Part shown: positions 7,064 to 16,627 of the stretch, piece after piece | How positions within the stretch are numbered: position 1 is the first letter of the stretch | Layout: the number at the start of each line of letters is the position of its first letter | Virus record (IMG/VR): IMGVR_UViG_3300011116_000325 | Coordinates: 1 to 41,797 of that record | Length of the DNA: 41,797 nucleotides | Direction: 5' to 3' (one strand) | DNA from: a virus | Translations under genes and position numbers: made by a program | The notes under the pieces: model-generated | What the model saw: only the letters and a program-made list of their open reading frames with translations | The model's database searches: none | What the model was told of the DNA's origin: nothing

Positions 7064-7578
7064 TGGCATTTGAATTAATACAAAAGAAAACTCTTACAAG
7101 TTCTAGTGCATTGGTTGAATTTGATACATTGCCAACAACATATAAAGACCTCAAAGTAATTGTTAGTGGTAGAGGCACTACCTCACAAAATCGTGTTGTA
7201 ACCCTTATCAGACTCAACAATGACTCAACCAACGCAAACTACATACAGTTTGATTGGTATTTTGAAGATGGTGGTGCTGGTGGAGAGTGGAGTAACGGTG
7301 GGGCAAGAGCCAGAATTATGGGCATCTTTCCATGCGCCAGTGCAACCTCATCTAACTCTTTTGGTATAGCGGAAATTGCTATAAACAATTACAATAATAC
7401 AACAAACTATAAACAGATAAATAGTTTTTTGTGTAGCTATCAAACTACAGCAAGTTGGGATTTATGGAATGATGGAAATGTATGGAAAAATACAAGCGCC
7501 ATAACAAAAATTGGCATTGAAACCGAAGTAGGAAGTTTTGCATCAGGGTCAATTTTTTATCTTTACGGTCTAAAATAG
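7063..7578 (+). CDS. Receptor-binding-type tail tip protein, paralog C
   Basis: 171 residues. It shares TTYKDLKVIVSGRG, then LIRLNNDSTNANY, then SAITKIGIETE and a terminal IFYLYGLK with A and B. Unlike B it contains a segment with NSFGIAEIAINNYNN and two cysteines. It closes the three-gene array and is followed by a fibre-chaperone-like gene, the common order fibre-then-chaperone. Confidence 0.75.
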   Translation: MAFELIQKKTLTSSSALVEFDTLPTTYKDLKVIVSGRGTTSQNRVVTLIRLNNDSTNANYIQFDWYFEDGGAGGEWSNGGARARIMGIFPCASATSSNSFGIAEIAINNYNNTTNYKQINSFLCSYQTTASWDLWNDGNVWKNTSAITKIGIETEVGSFASGSIFYLYGLK

Positions 7579-8754: not shown

Positions 8755-10668
8755 GTGGCAACAAACAATAAAAAACTTGTTGGTGATTTACCTGTAATTC
8801 TTAGCCAGTCTATTCCAACGGCGCTGGTTAAATACCAACGAGAGGACTTTGCTGCTAGCTACGCTATTGGTAGTACACCTTGGCTTTCTGCTGCATCTGA
8901 CCAGAATCGGATTAGTCGTATTACTACGACATACCAGAAGGAACGTATTGACCAGGGCTCTACCGCTGGTGAAAACTCTCTATCCAACTGGTGGCTTAGG
9001 TCTGCAACATCTTGGCATCACGGTGCTGGAGAGCGTTATTATGACGCAGATTCATCTGACTTATATAGATACTATGAATCAAACAATATAGATGTATTCA
9101 GTAATACTGGTTCTATTAATTTACTTCCAGCTACAACGCAGTTTTCTACAACAGCTATCACCGCTAAACCAGCCACTGTAACTGGCGGTGCTTTTTATAT
9201 TCAAGGTGGTAATGTCTACTACTATAATGGTTCTACAAATACAGCTACATCTACATCCTTAGCAACATCTGTAACAGCGCATGTTTTAACAAGCGATGGT
9301 AACCATGCAATTGTTGGTGGAACAGATGCAATCTATACAGTAAGCACATCAATGGTTGTATCTAAAATTTGGAACAAACCAAATACTGTCAGCACTTGGA
9401 CTGTTCAAGCTATTGGTTTTGTTAAAGACAGAATAGTTATTGGCGTATTAGAAAACAACACCCAGTGTGTAGTGTATGAAATATCAAGATTCCCCTCTTC
9501 AGCACCATCGACTATTGGTAATACTGAAGAGCGTTATACATATAAAGACCCAGCGTTGGTATGGAATACTGTTGGTGAGCTTAATAGTGCAATCATAGTT
9601 GGTTATACACTTGGTGCAATTTCACGAGTATTATCATTTAGTATAAATGATACATCTCCATTGGCTGCAATCAATGACCCAATTGTCATTGCAGAATTAC
9701 CACGAGGTGAAACAATACATCAGATTCGTACATACCTAAATGAGTTTGTTGTTATGGCTACTACAGCTGGTGTGCGAGTCGGTAATCAATCTACTGATGG
9801 AGTTTCATTTACTTACGGACCACTTAATGTTACTGGTGATGTAAAAGATGTTGCATTTACTGGCAGGTTTGTATACGCAACTAGGTCACTTGCCATTAAT
9901 AACAAGAAGGGTCTATGGAAAATCGACCTTGGTCAGCCAATAGATAACGGCTATGCGTATGCTGCTGACTTAGAAACAGATTCATCAGACGTTATTGGAA
10001 TTTCATTTTTAGGAACATCGGCAAGAAAGTTTATGGTTGGTGCATCTGGAGTATGGACTGAGCATGCAACACAACTAGCCACATCTGGTGTTATTAAATC
10101 TGGATGGATTCGCTGGGGTACTGCAGAAAAGAAACAACCAGTATCTATTGCTGTCCGCTGCCAAGGTGGTGGTCGAGTAGGTTTCTCCGTTTACGACCAA
10201 GAACTTAACTCAACATTGATTGATGCTATCCCGCTTAATGGCTCAACAGAATTCCAATTGTCTGCTGGTCTTCAACCAGCTGACCACTTTGAGATTCAAT
10301 TAACTTTAACTAGAAGTACAAGCGATGCAACAGTTGGTCCAACAGTAGAAGAATGGCAGTGTCGTGCTCTACCAGCACCACTTCGTTCTCGTACAATTAC
10401 AGTTCCATTACTATGTTTCGAAGAGGAGCGCGATTCAAATGGAGTCACAAAAGTATCCAACCCATGGGAACGCATTAACTATTTGGAACGTATTGAACAA
10501 AATGGAGGCGCGGTACTCTTCCAGGACTTTTCTTCAGGAGAAGAAAGACTCTGTACTATCCGCGCTTTACAGTTCGAGCAAACTTCACCTCCCTCTTTTG
10601 CATCGGGATTTGGTGGAATAGTTACAGTTCAACTACAAACTATTGATACAGAAATTCCAATTGAGTAG
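8755..10668 (+). CDS. Large tail protein (tube/nozzle candidate)
   Basis: 637 residues with a GTG start preceded by agagga. It is beta-rich throughout, with repeating strand-turn units between about 150 and 450 (for example VLTSDGNHAIVGGTDAIYTV and WKIDLGQPIDNGYAYAADLE) that resemble a beta-propeller. The N-terminus has ENSLSNWWLRSATSW; the C-terminal 150 residues contain RSRTITVPLLCFEEERDSNG and NPWERINYLERI. Size and place (after lysis genes, end of the late module) suit a podovirus tail tube/nozzle protein; propellers are known in that role. Assignment is by plan and context. Confidence 0.6.
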   Translation: MATNNKKLVGDLPVILSQSIPTALVKYQREDFAASYAIGSTPWLSAASDQNRISRITTTYQKERIDQGSTAGENSLSNWWLRSATSWHHGAGERYYDADSSDLYRYYESNNIDVFSNTGSINLLPATTQFSTTAITAKPATVTGGAFYIQGGNVYYYNGSTNTATSTSLATSVTAHVLTSDGNHAIVGGTDAIYTVSTSMVVSKIWNKPNTVSTWTVQAIGFVKDRIVIGVLENNTQCVVYEISRFPSSAPSTIGNTEERYTYKDPALVWNTVGELNSAIIVGYTLGAISRVLSFSINDTSPLAAINDPIVIAELPRGETIHQIRTYLNEFVVMATTAGVRVGNQSTDGVSFTYGPLNVTGDVKDVAFTGRFVYATRSLAINNKKGLWKIDLGQPIDNGYAYAADLETDSSDVIGISFLGTSARKFMVGASGVWTEHATQLATSGVIKSGWIRWGTAEKKQPVSIAVRCQGGGRVGFSVYDQELNSTLIDAIPLNGSTEFQLSAGLQPADHFEIQLTLTRSTSDATVGPTVEEWQCRALPAPLRSRTITVPLLCFEEERDSNGVTKVSNPWERINYLERIEQNGGAVLFQDFSSGEERLCTIRALQFEQTSPPSFASGFGGIVTVQLQTIDTEIPIE

Positions 10669-10886: not shown

Positions 10887-10901
10887 GGAGCCAAAGAGAT
10901 A

Positions 10902-10937
10902 GGGGGAACCATAACGGTTCCCCCTTCTTTTTGTTTT
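10902..10937 (+). terminator. Rho-independent terminator of the late operon
   Basis: Stem GGGGGAACC (10902-10910) with GGTTCCCCC (10916-10924), loop ATAAC, followed by a T-rich tract TTCTTTTTGTTTTT. This is the clearest terminator of the structural module. The same stem also lies just past the leftward gene stop at 10937, where read-out would be weaker. Confidence 0.92.
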
Positions 10938-11086
10938 TAATACGCGGATTTATCTTTGATTAAGATTCGTATTGCCCAATCTAAGCCAGCGTTAAACCCT
11001 TCCATCCATTCTTTATCTTTATGCCCATCAGGAAGATGCGTCTTCGCATCTTCTATTTTGTTTATGAATATATCTATATCTTTCAT
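10937..11086 (-). CDS. Small leftward gene, unknown function
   Basis: 49 residues from ATG 11086 (an in-frame GTG at 11122 would add 12). The pattern KDKEWMEGFNAGLDWAIRIL resembles small phage proteins with W/Y-x-x-G-x-N-x-G-x-x-x-A-I. It is transcribed against its neighbours, in the gap between late and early modules. A hairpin directly precedes the ATG (11088-11107). Function unknown. Confidence 0.6.
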   Translation of the reverse strand: MKDIDIFINKIEDAKTHLPDGHKDKEWMEGFNAGLDWAIRILIKDKSAY

Positions 11087-11087
11087 C

Positions 11088-11107
11088 GGCTCGCCCTGTG
11101 GCGAGCC
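11088..11107. promoter_or_regulatory. Perfect hairpin abutting the start of the leftward 49-codon gene
   Basis: GGCTCGCC (11088-11095) pairs with GGCGAGCC (11100-11107) over a 4-base loop. In leftward RNA the stem ends one base before the ATG, so any ribosome site is inside the stem. In rightward RNA it is followed by TTT and could act as a weak terminator. The rest of 10887-11205 shows no other gene. At 11194-11199 TACACT precedes the early ATG by 6 bases, a possible -10 box giving leaderless mRNA. Confidence 0.5.
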
Positions 11108-11205
11108 TTTCCCGCCCTCCACCCCTCAAACTTATCACGGATTTGGTTAAAAAACAAACGGCGTGTCTTACCCGATTTGTCCGTCTTGGAGATTACACTG
11201 GGCAT

Positions 11206-11400
11206 ATGAATCAACTACCCCCACATCGTTCCTATAGTCAGCTTTCTACTTGGCAATCCTGCCCGCAGAAATACTACCTCAGCAAAGTCGCAATGGTCCC
11301 AGAGAAACCAGCTGTTTATTTGGCTGCTGGCTCAGCAGTCCACTCGATGCTGGAATGGTTGAACCATGAGTTCTACAGAACCCAACAAGAATCTAATTGA
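11206..11400 (+). CDS. Cas4/RecB-like exonuclease, N-terminal half (split gene)
   Basis: 64 residues. RSYSQLSTWQSCPQKYYLSK supplies the conserved N-terminal helix and the first cysteine (Cys19) of the Fe-S cluster of Cas4/AddB-type nucleases. AAGSAVHSMLEWL supplies the motif-I His (His46). The frame then stops at TGA, exactly where intact phage homologs continue into the domain encoded at 11583-12254. No ribosome site is obvious; the start may be leaderless. It probably works together with the C-terminal half rather than being dead, because all conserved residues on both sides are kept. Confidence 0.8.
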   Translation: MNQLPPHRSYSQLSTWQSCPQKYYLSKVAMVPEKPAVYLAAGSAVHSMLEWLNHEFYRTQQESN

Positions 11401-11596
11401 CCAGCGGGGGATACCTAGCAATGAGTGTATCAACTGTGGTTCCAACATCCAAATTATTCGTGCCATCTTCCAAGACTATGAGCTTGTTATGTGGTTTACT
11501 GATTCCTTCTGTGCGACCTGTGGGTCGCCGATGACTACCCCAACCCCCATAGATAACCCAGACTACACTCCGAAGGATGATGATGAGTTTAACTGA
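11366..11596 (+). CDS. Zinc-ribbon protein inserted between the exonuclease halves
   Basis: 76 residues with two CxxC pairs, NECINCGSN and FCATCGSPM, about 28 residues apart, which is a zinc-ribbon pattern. The acidic C-terminus is TPKDDDEF. It overlaps the upstream half by 35 bp and the downstream half by up to 20 bp, each in a different frame, so all three are coupled. It lacks HNH or GIY-YIG motifs, so it is not a recognisable homing endonuclease. It could be a stabilising subunit; function unknown. Confidence 0.75.
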   Translation: MSSTEPNKNLIDQRGIPSNECINCGSNIQIIRAIFQDYELVMWFTDSFCATCGSPMTTPTPIDNPDYTPKDDDEFN

Positions 11597-12254
11597 AAAA
11601 TGGCTTGAAGTATTTAATGAATCTGTTAGAGTTACCGAAGAACAAACAGGTATTCCTAGTTCTGATTGGAAGACTAGCGGTCGCAAGACCGCAGCTCGCC
11701 CAGATGGGGAAGACCTAGCGTTCTGGCAGAGCGATGGACTCAAGCAGGTTGAGGCTTACCAGAAGTGGTATGCTCAGTCTGGGTGGAAAATTGCTACCCT
11801 GCCCGACGGTCGTCCTGGCATCGAATGGGATGCAAGTGTGCATTTCGGAGGCACACCTGTACGCTTTGTCGTTGATGTCATTTACCAAGTGGGGGAAGAC
11901 TTAGTAATAGTCGACTTCAAGACTGGTGCTAGGACACCGTTCGGTATGATTCAAGCTGGCTTGTATGCCAGCGGTATTGAAAAAATGTATGGCATTCGCC
12001 CAAAGTGGGGCGCATTTTTTATGACACGTCAAGGTCAACTCGATGACCTGTTTGACTTATCCCATCTCAGCATGGATTATTTTGATTATGTATTTAGCGC
12101 AATGAATGATTCAGTATCTAAAGGTTGGTTCCCACCATCTGTTGGTGAAAACTGTAAGATGTGTTCATTCCAAGAGAAGTGTCCAGCAATGGGCTCAAAA
12201 GAATTCCCTCTGCAAATACCTACAACAAAGGGAAAGAAAGGAAAAAGTAGATGA
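11583..12254 (+). CDS. Cas4/RecB-like exonuclease, C-terminal half (split gene)
   Basis: 223 residues. PD-(D/E)XK core: FVVDVI (Asp98), VIVDFKTG (Asp111, Lys113), then QAGLY (Gln124-Tyr128). The C-terminal ENCKMCSFQEKC provides Cys191, Cys194 and Cys200, the last three ligands of a 4Fe-4S cluster whose first ligand is in the upstream gene. It carries out 5'-3' or 3'-5' DNA resection in homologs. Three consecutive ATG codons (11577, 11580, 11583) follow gaagg; 11583 has the best spacing. Overlaps the next gene by 4 bp. Confidence 0.85.
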   Translation: MSLTEKWLEVFNESVRVTEEQTGIPSSDWKTSGRKTAARPDGEDLAFWQSDGLKQVEAYQKWYAQSGWKIATLPDGRPGIEWDASVHFGGTPVRFVVDVIYQVGEDLVIVDFKTGARTPFGMIQAGLYASGIEKMYGIRPKWGAFFMTRQGQLDDLFDLSHLSMDYFDYVFSAMNDSVSKGWFPPSVGENCKMCSFQEKCPAMGSKEFPLQIPTTKGKKGKSR

Positions 12255-12715
12255 CTGAGTCTACGTTTTCATATACTGGCAAGCTAAATGGGCAGGACTT
12301 ATTTACCGTTCGAGGTATGAGTATTGCTGAATTCAAAGCAAATCTAATTGCTGCAGTTGAGGCAATCAATGAAGCACAAGGTTTGCAATCAATGTTGGTC
12401 AATCGACCAACAGGTAACGCATACGCACCTAACATGGAGCAGGCTATCCAGGCTCTCCAAGATGCTGGCATGAATCCTCAGCCAGTGTCATCATCGCCTC
12501 AATCAATTGAGGTAGTCAAAGACAAGTACGGCAATGAGTGGACATACGGACACCCAGATGCCCCAGACCTACCAGATGGACGTGGCAAGTACGCCAAGAA
12601 GAAGGGCGTATCTAAAGCTGGTAAGTCTTACGTTGGTTGGTTTGACCCAGCCAAGGGACCAAAGCCATTTAAGCCAGGTGTTGCTGAAGCAGAAACAATC
12701 TGGACTAAAGGCTAA
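12251..12715 (+). CDS. Conserved actinophage replication-module protein
   Basis: 154 residues. The N-terminal part (FSYTGKLNGQDLFTVRGMSI) is beta-rich and followed by a helix; a linker with Pro/Ser leads to a C-terminal basic, aromatic region (YGNEWTYGHPDAPDLP, GRGKYAKKKGVSKAGKSYVG, WFDPAKGPKPF). This C-terminal pattern recurs next to Cas4-type exonucleases and RecA-like ATPases in actinophages. A single-strand-binding or recombination accessory role is plausible but unproven. ATGA overlap with the exonuclease. Confidence 0.75.
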   Translation: MTESTFSYTGKLNGQDLFTVRGMSIAEFKANLIAAVEAINEAQGLQSMLVNRPTGNAYAPNMEQAIQALQDAGMNPQPVSSSPQSIEVVKDKYGNEWTYGHPDAPDLPDGRGKYAKKKGVSKAGKSYVGWFDPAKGPKPFKPGVAEAETIWTKG

Positions 12716-15123: not shown

Positions 15124-15453
15124 ATGAACCAACCCGAATTTCTTGAAGCAGTCTTTCGTCATTATGGATTAGACCTACCGTTAGGTGGGGACAAATCCAT
15201 CTTTTGTCCTGTACATGATGACTCGCATAAGTCTGCTTCGGTTAATTCGGAGAAGGGTGTCTGGGTATGTTATGCATGCAGCGGACGTGGCGCTGGTATA
15301 CAGATTGTCATGGCTCGTGAAAACTTAACATACTCAGACGCTCGCAAATGGGCAGAGAAGAACATAGGTAAGGAGGCGAAGAGCGCAGCTCCGACTCGTG
15401 GACGCAAGTCCAGCAGTCGTTGGACTCCACCTAGATTGAGGTCAGTTAGATGA
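15124..15453 (+). CDS. Primase, zinc-finger domain only (split primase)
   Basis: 109 residues with the CHC2 pattern CPVH (28-31) and CYAC (49-52), plus RGAGIQIVMARENLTYSDA as in DnaG N-terminal domains. It ends in a basic tail (PTRGRKSSSRWTPPRLRSVR). The TOPRIM part is a separate gene at 15980; the intervening gene is an Ntn-hydrolase. It presumably reads primer start sites for the catalytic subunit. ATGA overlap with the next gene. Confidence 0.85.
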   Translation: MNQPEFLEAVFRHYGLDLPLGGDKSIFCPVHDDSHKSASVNSEKGVWVCYACSGRGAGIQIVMARENLTYSDARKWAEKNIGKEAKSAAPTRGRKSSSRWTPPRLRSVR

Positions 15454-15983
15454 CAACAATCATTGGTATTCAAGAACCAGACGGCTGCTTGATTGCAGCC
15501 GATAGTAGAACTACAACTGAGAAGGGTCGCCCTTACTCACATCCAATCGTAACTAAGATTACTAAACGCGGTAAGTTTCTAATCGCTGGTGCTGGCACAA
15601 CTCAGCCGTGTGACATTGTCCAACACATATGGAAACCACCAGCTATACCAGCTAATACAAAAGACATCTATCACTTTATGATTACAACTGTCATCCCAAG
15701 CATGCGTGAATGCTTACGTGATAACGGATTCGTTCACGATGAGAAGACAGATGAATATGAATTTTTATTTTTAATGGCTGTGAACGGAACCATCTATGAG
15801 GTAGATGATACGTACTCAGTCTTCCTACGCGATGATGGCATCTATGGCTTAGGTTCTGGGTCTTCCTACGCCATAGGTGCTATCGCATCTGGTGCAAACT
15901 GGAAGAAAGCGCTGCAGATTGCAGCAAAAAATGATGTGTATACTGCTCCTCCTTTCGTAGTGCATAGGCAGGAAAAGAAATGA
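15450..15983 (+). CDS. HslV/proteasome-beta-like Ntn-hydrolase
   Basis: 177 residues. The N-terminus MTTIIGI would expose a catalytic Thr after Met removal. Numbering from that Thr gives Asp17 in LIAADSRT and Lys35 in IVTKITK, matching Asp17/Lys33 of HslV; FLIAGAGTTQP and YGLGSGSSYAIGAI match the Gly-rich strands. The C-terminus (ALQIAAKNDVYTAPPF) corresponds to the last helix and strand. No unfoldase gene is seen, so it would act alone or with a host ATPase. It overlaps the primase genes by 4 bp on both sides. Confidence 0.85.
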   Translation: MTTIIGIQEPDGCLIAADSRTTTEKGRPYSHPIVTKITKRGKFLIAGAGTTQPCDIVQHIWKPPAIPANTKDIYHFMITTVIPSMRECLRDNGFVHDEKTDEYEFLFLMAVNGTIYEVDDTYSVFLRDDGIYGLGSGSSYAIGAIASGANWKKALQIAAKNDVYTAPPFVVHRQEKK

Positions 15984-16627
15984 AACCAAATCAAAAGCTT
16001 ATAGACCTTTGGACTAAGGCAGCCAACACATATCACGAAACCCTTGCTGGTTCACCAGCCGAGGCATACCTAGAGAAGCGTGGCATCCTTGACGGAGCCG
16101 AACGATTCAAGCTTGGGTATGTGGTTGACCCAGCACCTGGGCATGAGGATAGATTGAAGCATCACTTGTCTATCCCATACATAACCGAGTCTGGAGTTGT
16201 TGGGTTTAAGTTCCGCCGTATAGATGACGGTGACCCAAAGTATATGATTCCTACTGGTCAGAAGCACCACCTATATAACGTCAGTGCTATCCTTCATGCA
16301 GTCCATGAAGTACTGATTGTGGAAGGAGAGATTGATGCGATATCTGCTACCCTTGCTGGTCATCCTGCTGTCGCTGTGGCTGGTGTTAATGCTTGGAAGC
16401 CTCACTTTAGCCGTTGTTTTGACGGCATTGGTCGTGTGGTTATAGCCACCGATAATGATGTTAAAGAAGATGGGTCTAACCCAGGGCAGGAATTAGCCCG
16501 CCGTTTATCTGATGCAATACCTCAAGCCATCCGCGTGTCGCTACCGCCTGATAGCGACATCAACAGTATAATTGTCAGCCAAGGAGCTCAAGCGTTAACT
16601 AAGTTGATTAACGCACTGGATGAATAG
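15980..16627 (+). CDS. Primase, TOPRIM catalytic domain (split primase)
   Basis: 215 residues. N-terminal DnaG-type AEAYLEKRGI and FKLGYVVDP, a substrate region with GVVGFKFRRIDD, then TOPRIM motifs VLIVEGEIDAISA (Glu115) and VVIATDNDVKEDG (Asp158, Asp160). The C-terminus has VSLPPDSDINSII. It has no zinc finger of its own; that is encoded at 15124. Makes RNA primers for replication by a host polymerase, as no DNA polymerase gene is present. Confidence 0.88.
   Translation: MKPNQKLIDLWTKAANTYHETLAGSPAEAYLEKRGILDGAERFKLGYVVDPAPGHEDRLKHHLSIPYITESGVVGFKFRRIDDGDPKYMIPTGQKHHLYNVSAILHAVHEVLIVEGEIDAISATLAGHPAVAVAGVNAWKPHFSRCFDGIGRVVIATDNDVKEDGSNPGQELARRLSDAIPQAIRVSLPPDSDINSIIVSQGAQALTKLINALDE

Follow-up and report, generated by a model that had tools for sequence, protein, structure and literature searches.

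Results

The nuclease locus and its surroundings

The window, i.e., the complete stretch of 41,797 nucleotides analysed here (IMG/VR record IMGVR_UViG_3300011116_000325), contains three short overlapping genes, the outer two of which, the N half and the C half, carry different parts of one Fe-S nuclease, and the middle one of which encodes a zinc-ribbon-like protein that we refer to as Z (Table 1). Read from the sequence, the N half bears the motifs QSCPQKY and GSAVH, and Z bears CINC and CATC. The N half overlaps Z by 35 bases and Z overlaps the C half by 20 bases (14 with the start at 11583); in the loci near the window the reading frame of N is followed by that of Z at +1 and that of C at +2. 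A first-pass annotation made from the letters of the sequence alone had described this arrangement, and its description holds: the histidine of GSAVH and the cysteine of QSCPQKY are present in the first gene, Asp98, Asp111-x-Lys113, Gln124/Tyr128 and three cysteines in the last one, and the 76-residue protein with two CxxC pairs does overlap both halves in different frames. The residue numbers given there (Asp98, Asp111, Lys113) agree with a C half begun at ATG 11583, the third in-frame ATG, which, judged from the sequence, is the likelier start than 11577.

Table 1. Features of the split nuclease gene and of its neighbourhood, with positions in the window.
Feature	Position	Strand	Remarks
Terminator-like hairpin	10901..10925		readable on both strands
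N half, Fe-S PD-(D/E)XK nuclease	11206..11400	+	64 aa; first Fe-S Cys19, motif-I His46
Z, zinc-ribbon-like protein gene	11366..11596	+	76 aa; CxxC-x24-CxxC
Shine-Dalgarno-like GAAGGA	11572..11577	+	within Z 3' end, 5 bases 5' of ATG 11583
C half	11577..12254	+	225 aa; 223 aa from ATG 11583; Asp98, Asp111-x-Lys113, Gln124, Tyr128, Cys191/194/200
Primase, zinc-finger part	15124..15453		
HslV-peptidase-like gene	15450..15983		phrog_1040, E 3.6e-26
Primase, Toprim part	15980..16627		

Downstream of the split nuclease lie genes for a DnaB-like ATPase, a RusA-like resolvase, a primase and an endonuclease VII. The terminator-like hairpin precedes these replication genes, which start with the split nuclease itself. 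The primase, too, is encoded in two pieces, and the HslV-peptidase-like gene is located between them with 4-base overlaps. Both primase parts and the HslV-like gene occur together in 47 of 289 loci searched (46 with a split nuclease, one cut), and 30 further loci have both primase parts without the HslV-like gene; in all 30 of these the nuclease is unsplit.

Relationship of the two halves to known nuclease families

The notion of a nuclease divided in two with a gene in between receives support from profile searches, in which PDDEXK_1 and phrog_1870 match the two halves consecutively. The N half covers positions 3-50 of PDDEXK_1 (E 2.5e-7) and positions 11-68 of the 313 in phrog_1870 (E 3.9e-5), and the C half covers positions 113-247 (E 2.7e-6) and 73-297 (E 1.4e-61) of the same two profiles. 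As the parts of phrog_1870 covered are nearly adjacent, little has been lost between the halves. The N half also matches phrog_69 (E 1.4e-11). A comparison of the halves with phage exonucleases, as advised in the first-pass annotation, again led both of them to phrog_1870 and to gp76 of Mycobacteriophage PurpleHaze, the product of one CDS on the minus strand; here, the alignment extends up to N-half residue 64 and resumes with C-half residue 3, and the N-half match stops at 43686 and the C-half match starts at 43682, with 3 bases separating them. In one of our alignments (A3) the C half from the window starts at an MSL that is also present in two of the unsplit proteins, those of L175 and PurpleHaze.

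The motifs that characterize RecB nucleases (His; Asp; Asp-x-Lys or Glu-x-Lys, here the former; QxxxY) are all present across the two halves, as is the four-cysteine pattern, with one N-terminal cysteine in the N half and three C-terminal cysteines in the C half. In the Cas4 protein Pcal_0546 (PMC4176176), one N-terminal and three C-terminal cysteines (C-x2-C-x5-C) hold one cluster, and the same spacing is found in the halves from the window; according to the same article, the cluster cysteines of Pcal_0546 are dispensable for cleavage, and kept cysteines are therefore no proof of activity. When the three proteins of the locus were scanned with PADLOC, the C half matched Cas4 (E 3.4e-9). The neighbours that were scanned match phage replication families. 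All 1141 records from isolated phages that match the C half are less than 60% identical to it, with 31% for the best among the matches listed. The carriers of the split appear to be a virus family related to phages of actinobacteria.

Conservation of the split in near relatives

A scan of IMG/VR with the C half returned 138 relatives, 80 of which were taken. N, Z and C follow one another in this order in 77 of the 80 loci, and the other three (L027, L049 and L059) begin inside the region. Z as the query returned 166 relatives; 80 of these were taken, 73 of them new loci, and N and C flank Z in all 73. From two other scans for relatives, 80 of 480 and 80 of 318 were taken. A classifier combining an N profile with a C profile was applied to 405 sequences (404 loci and the window) and called 228 split, 154 unsplit and 23 as C only. 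The C half is at least 50% identical to that of the window in 217 records: 210 are split, seven are cut by the contig end before the N half, and none is unsplit. One intact gene in all close relatives, which the first-pass annotation had named as evidence against its reading, is thus the opposite of what was observed. No record among the 405 sequences has a C half with 35-50% identity to the window. Because many loci stem from the same contigs and the records are consequently not independent, we used counts of distinct sequences, and the 217 near records represent 90 distinct C-domain sequences, the window and its re-fetch included.

Both pieces are kept together with their active-site residues. 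Asp98, Lys113, Gln124 and the three cysteines occur in 92/92 distinct full-length C halves and Asp111 and Tyr128 in 91/92 each; among the distinct N halves with a complete start, the cysteine is present in 61/61 and the histidine in 60/61. Thirteen of the 228 split records with an incomplete C match were left out of the C count (eight of them form the L375 group and were checked by eye), and eight of the 228, including L029, were left out of the N count. The exceptions are few: an in-frame stop within the C half of L031, which is identical with L120, an N half without start and cysteine in L029, and an in-frame deletion through the motif-I His46 of the N half in L360, the C half being open in the latter two. 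These lesions are either sequencing or assembly errors or true losses. For the non-overlapping parts of the genes, 10 pairs of five sequences gave pN/pS values of 0.01-0.09 for N, 0.10-0.20 for Z and 0.11-0.25 for C, which are rough because pS is high (0.49-0.90). All three genes are under purifying selection, and this, together with the residue counts, upholds the earlier argument that the catalytic residues are kept and that the gene is not decaying.

Split nucleases in distant lineages

Distant split relatives, some of them in actinobacterial genomes, share only about 30% identity with the window and are divided at the same place. In the genome of Trebonia kvetii (L206, 30% identity), a 25-residue acidic ORF and a 44-residue cysteine-containing ORF lie between the halves at the same split site, and a gene for a DnaB-like ATPase is located downstream, as in the window. 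A survey of the class of Trebonia with phrog_1870 covered 394 genomes, 82 of which gave a match at E 1e-8; the five strongest matches were inspected closely, and two of them, in Trebonia and G020, consist of a C half alone in its ORF. The weaker matches are mostly in long ORFs. At the G020 locus (L323), the N half (7139-7339, 66 aa, E 1.6e-15) is situated about 1.9 kb upstream of the C half (9271-9915) with several ORFs in between, and about 1 kb separates the halves in L328, which is 52% identical to Trebonia. Small cysteine-containing ORFs occur between the halves here as well, at 7336-7482 (overlapping the N-half stop) and 8345-8488 in L323 and at 2646-2792 in L328; for those of L206, L323 and L328 the comparison with Z yielded nothing significant, and homology is not claimed. 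A viral scan found no relative of the Trebonia C half and a single one of the L323 C half (L324, 100% identical). When a profile of split C halves was run at E 1e-14 against 396 genomes across the phylum, Trebonia itself was the sole match; at E 1e-10, the matches among 22 genomes of G020's order were G020 itself and G165, the gene of the latter being unsplit.

Further arrangements are found among the viral loci. In L329-L332 (L329 nuclease 30% identical to the window) the order is N, a Z homologue, another ORF and C. L367 (56% identical), L383, L394 and L396 contain the Z region, and their N and C share one frame. In the eight records of the L375 group, N and C abut without an insert and are joined by an ATGA stop/start overlap in all eight, and L372 is unsplit. 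Altogether, three kinds of N/C frame relation exist among the 228 split records (217, 8 and 3), and there is therefore no fixed recoding. Two different nuclease loci (L139 and L350) were encountered about 42 kb apart on IMGVR_UViG_3300027754_000069 (82,688 bases); this 82.7-kb sequence looks as if two related phage genomes had been joined in one record.

Origin of the split

A tree based on the C region only was calculated for 69 rows; its bootstrap is not fully settled. All 18 split rows are located on one starred branch (99/94) together with the unsplit L372 and L292, and 49 unsplit rows stand apart. As it stands, the tree requires two changes of split state and not one, with L292 on a long branch and of uncertain placement. 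A constrained tree that keeps the 18 split rows together was not rejected (p-AU 0.524), and its likelihood was even slightly higher. One old split is the simplest reading of the tree and a single origin is possible, but the split may also have arisen several times. The window clade has the L375 group as its sister (support 91/84, not starred). As Z is present both in the window clade and in the L329 clade, we infer as the simplest reading that the L375 group lost Z.

Position of the split in the predicted structure

The fold was assessed with the unsplit relative L372 only. The L372 model (pLDDT 88, pTM 0.84) matches AdnA (Z-score 17.2; rmsd 3.4 over 221 residues), ACE1 (16.4), AddB (15.4), Dna2 (13.4) and Cas4 (13.0). 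His50 is placed on a helix spanning residues 42-57, the part homologous to the N half stops near residue 57, and the C half starts at about residue 67, just ahead of a helix formed by residues 68-83. In the model, the split is thus predicted to fall in a loop after the helix that carries the motif-I histidine. The N side contains this histidine and Cys23, one of the cluster cysteines, and the other ligands all belong to the C side.

The protein encoded between the halves

Z is strongly conserved and co-inherited with the split nuclease. It sits between the halves in 215 of the 228 split records. Both strands of the 405 sequences were searched, and 220 sequences (215 split and five cut) contain one copy each; Z is present in 0/154 unsplit records and was not found outside the split point in the stretches searched. 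We also searched 13 whole records. Seven have one copy each, and none was found in those of L388, L372, L382, L397, L375 and L328, which include fragments; the record of L388, a member of the L375 group, extends over 40.8 kb. The restriction of Z to the split point argues for a link between Z and the nuclease, and from the Z-less L375 group it follows that such a split gene can persist without Z. L367 (E 6.7e-13) and L329-L332 (E 4.5e-7 to 8.8e-7) likewise carry homologues of Z between their halves.

Among 17 Z proteins, Cys24, Cys49 and Cys52 are present in every one, Cys21 is absent from the L329 type, and there is no invariant histidine. L073 and L080 have neither ATG nor GTG near the usual start. 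In Pfam, neither Z from the window nor the 17 Z proteins gave a match above gathering, and zinc ribbons appeared below the cut-off. The Z model (pLDDT 64) has two strands in its core, and with it Foldseek returned nothing at E under 0.9, the weak matches being mostly proteins of the zinc-ribbon type. PADLOC gave no match for Z, and among isolated phages it matched only a single Erwinia phage, present with two records, at E 0.9.

Discussion

A nuclease probably assembled from two chains

The general picture that we derive from these data is that of a RecB/AdnA/Cas4-like Fe-S exonuclease with an old and selectively kept split, the two separately translated chains of which assemble without a covalent link (probability roughly 0.78). 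That no near relative is unsplit and that distant ones are split at the same place speaks against a sequencing error, decay, splicing and a fixed frameshift, and the same evidence argues for two separately made chains that assemble. With a split that is old and maintained by selection, the two pieces probably form a working enzyme. The N chain would supply the initial helices, the motif-I histidine and one of the cysteines for the cluster; the catalytic Asp/Asp/Lys, the QxxxY motif and the three cysteines still required would come from the C chain. Two polypeptides would thus contribute to the active site, and likewise to the Fe-S staple. The overlaps between cistrons (N/Z/C in the window and the N/C ATGA in the related clade) could couple their synthesis. 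Z, the gene of which is at the split point, is as a zinc-ribbon-like protein a candidate for zinc binding; it may work together with the nuclease or target the same DNA. To judge from its downstream neighbours, the genes for the DnaB-like ATPase, the RusA-like resolvase, the primase and endonuclease VII, the nuclease probably serves replication or recombination.

For Z, it is close to an even bet that the protein is a passenger with a function of its own, which entered or made the split, has been kept since because the overlaps hinder its loss, and has no contact with the nuclease. The L375 group, which is split without Z, and the 40.8-kb L388 record, in which Z was not found, fit such a history, as do the other ORFs between the halves in other lineages and the HslV-like gene between the two primase pieces of the same phage, which indicates that such insertions may be common in this phage. 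What a passenger does not readily account for is the strong conservation of Z, its occurrence in the stretches searched as one copy per record at the split point only and in 0/154 unsplit records, and the homologues at the same place in L367 and L329-L332 despite nuclease identities of 56% (L367) and 30% (L329). More tentatively, Z might be an obligatory third subunit of a three-chain Fe-S/zinc nuclease, made between the halves, bound at the split loop and controlling assembly or DNA entry; were this so, the order N-Z-C would serve as an assembly line during translation, with the ORFs found between the halves elsewhere as other assembly or control factors.

It is improbable that the C half acts alone, the N half being a mere leftover or serving some other purpose. 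The classical Asp/Asp/Lys set is indeed within the C half, and L029 and L360 combine a damaged N half with an open C half, but among N, Z and C conservation is highest in the N half (pN/pS 0.01-0.09), its cysteine and histidine are kept in nearly every distinct sequence, and it is retained in L323 even at a distance of 1.9 kb. Still less probable is Z as a cryptic or decayed homing endonuclease. Such enzymes have split phage genes including nrdA of Aeh1 (PMC2988022), and phage methylase genes can conceal an out-of-frame HNH gene that has zinc fingers (PMC11855218). However, Z has only 76 residues, the 17 Z proteins give no match to HNH, GIY-YIG, LAGLIDADG or any other nuclease family at E 0.1, in keeping with the first-pass annotation, which had noted no HNH or GIY-YIG motif, none of their histidines is invariant, and the distribution of Z in the near records is not patchy.

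Very little speaks for programmed frameshifting that would fuse N, Z and C into one polypeptide. The frame series N, +1, +2 in the loci near the window would suit it, but N and C share a frame in L367, L383, L394 and L396, the halves are 1-2 kb apart in L328 and L323, all eight L375-group records have the ATGA stop/start overlap, and the C half comes with a start and a GAAGGA site of its own. Removal of the insert by RNA or protein splicing is more doubtful again: beyond the position inside a gene, nothing in its favour was found, Rfam gave no match, either across the window with gathering scores or within 10900-12300 up to E 1, split forms without any insert exist, and an intein is excluded because stops interrupt the frame. 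The chance that a gene in decay, or a fault of sequencing or assembly, has been mistaken for a split is negligible, since the lesions in one half of three contigs are set against 0 unsplit genes among 90 distinct near C-domain sequences and against purifying selection on N, Z and C; the split relatives rule it out.

If the two chains do assemble, they constitute a naturally split Fe-S nuclease, with an active site and a metal cluster that are each common to two polypeptides, and this form has persisted in phages with a protein identity of only about 30%. Its lineages form a series, unsplit, split without an insert, split with Z and split with other genes, which allows one to ask how a gene cut through its active site survives, whether an Fe-S cluster can clamp two chains and what small genes at break points do. 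For the annotation of metagenomes, it follows that short "hypothetical" ORFs ahead of such exonuclease genes can be half the enzyme.

Comparison with known systems

The closest counterparts are the unsplit exonucleases of actinophages annotated as "Cas4 family" or "RecB-like" (PurpleHaze gp76; PHROG 1870), which have the same motifs as the nuclease from the window and, in the actinophages A10ZJ24, Ponzi and Success, likewise a DnaB-like helicase gene downstream. They differ in consisting of one chain, about 30% identical to the window, and Z is absent from all 154 unsplit records. The nuclease domains of AdnA and AddB and the stand-alone ACE1 and Cas4 (PDB 7sjr, 4cei, 9iac, 8d3l) have a fold like that of the unsplit relative L372, and they, too, keep the parts of the nuclease in one chain, unlike the split form in the window.

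Genes in pieces are known from T4-like phages, where, according to one article (PMC2988022), nrdA of Aeh1, the topoisomerase gene 60/39 and the DNA polymerase gene 43A/43B are divided, the NrdA pieces of Aeh1 are functional as separate chains, and the polymerase pieces co-purify with activity. There, as in the window, an enzyme has come to consist of separate chains through an insertion into a critical region. What was inserted is a homing endonuclease in the T4-like cases (an untranslated stretch in one 43A/43B case) and a zinc-ribbon-like protein or other ORFs in splits of the window type, which furthermore, unlike the former, are common to distant lineages and divide the set of Fe-S ligands. 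No description of a Cas4/RecB nuclease split in an actinophage is among the matches listed from open-licence PubMed Central, a collection with most of the subscription literature outside it. Phage genes in pieces being known already, the split of a RecB/Cas4-type Fe-S nuclease may perhaps count as a new variation on them.

A second parallel is offered by the hidden HNH elements of phage methylases (ShiLan domain), in which an out-of-frame zinc-finger ORF lies inside the gene for a DNA enzyme (PMC11855218), as Z does. In contrast to the situation in the window, the frame of the host gene stays open in these methylases, and what is inserted there encodes an HNH endonuclease, the distribution of which is disjoint.
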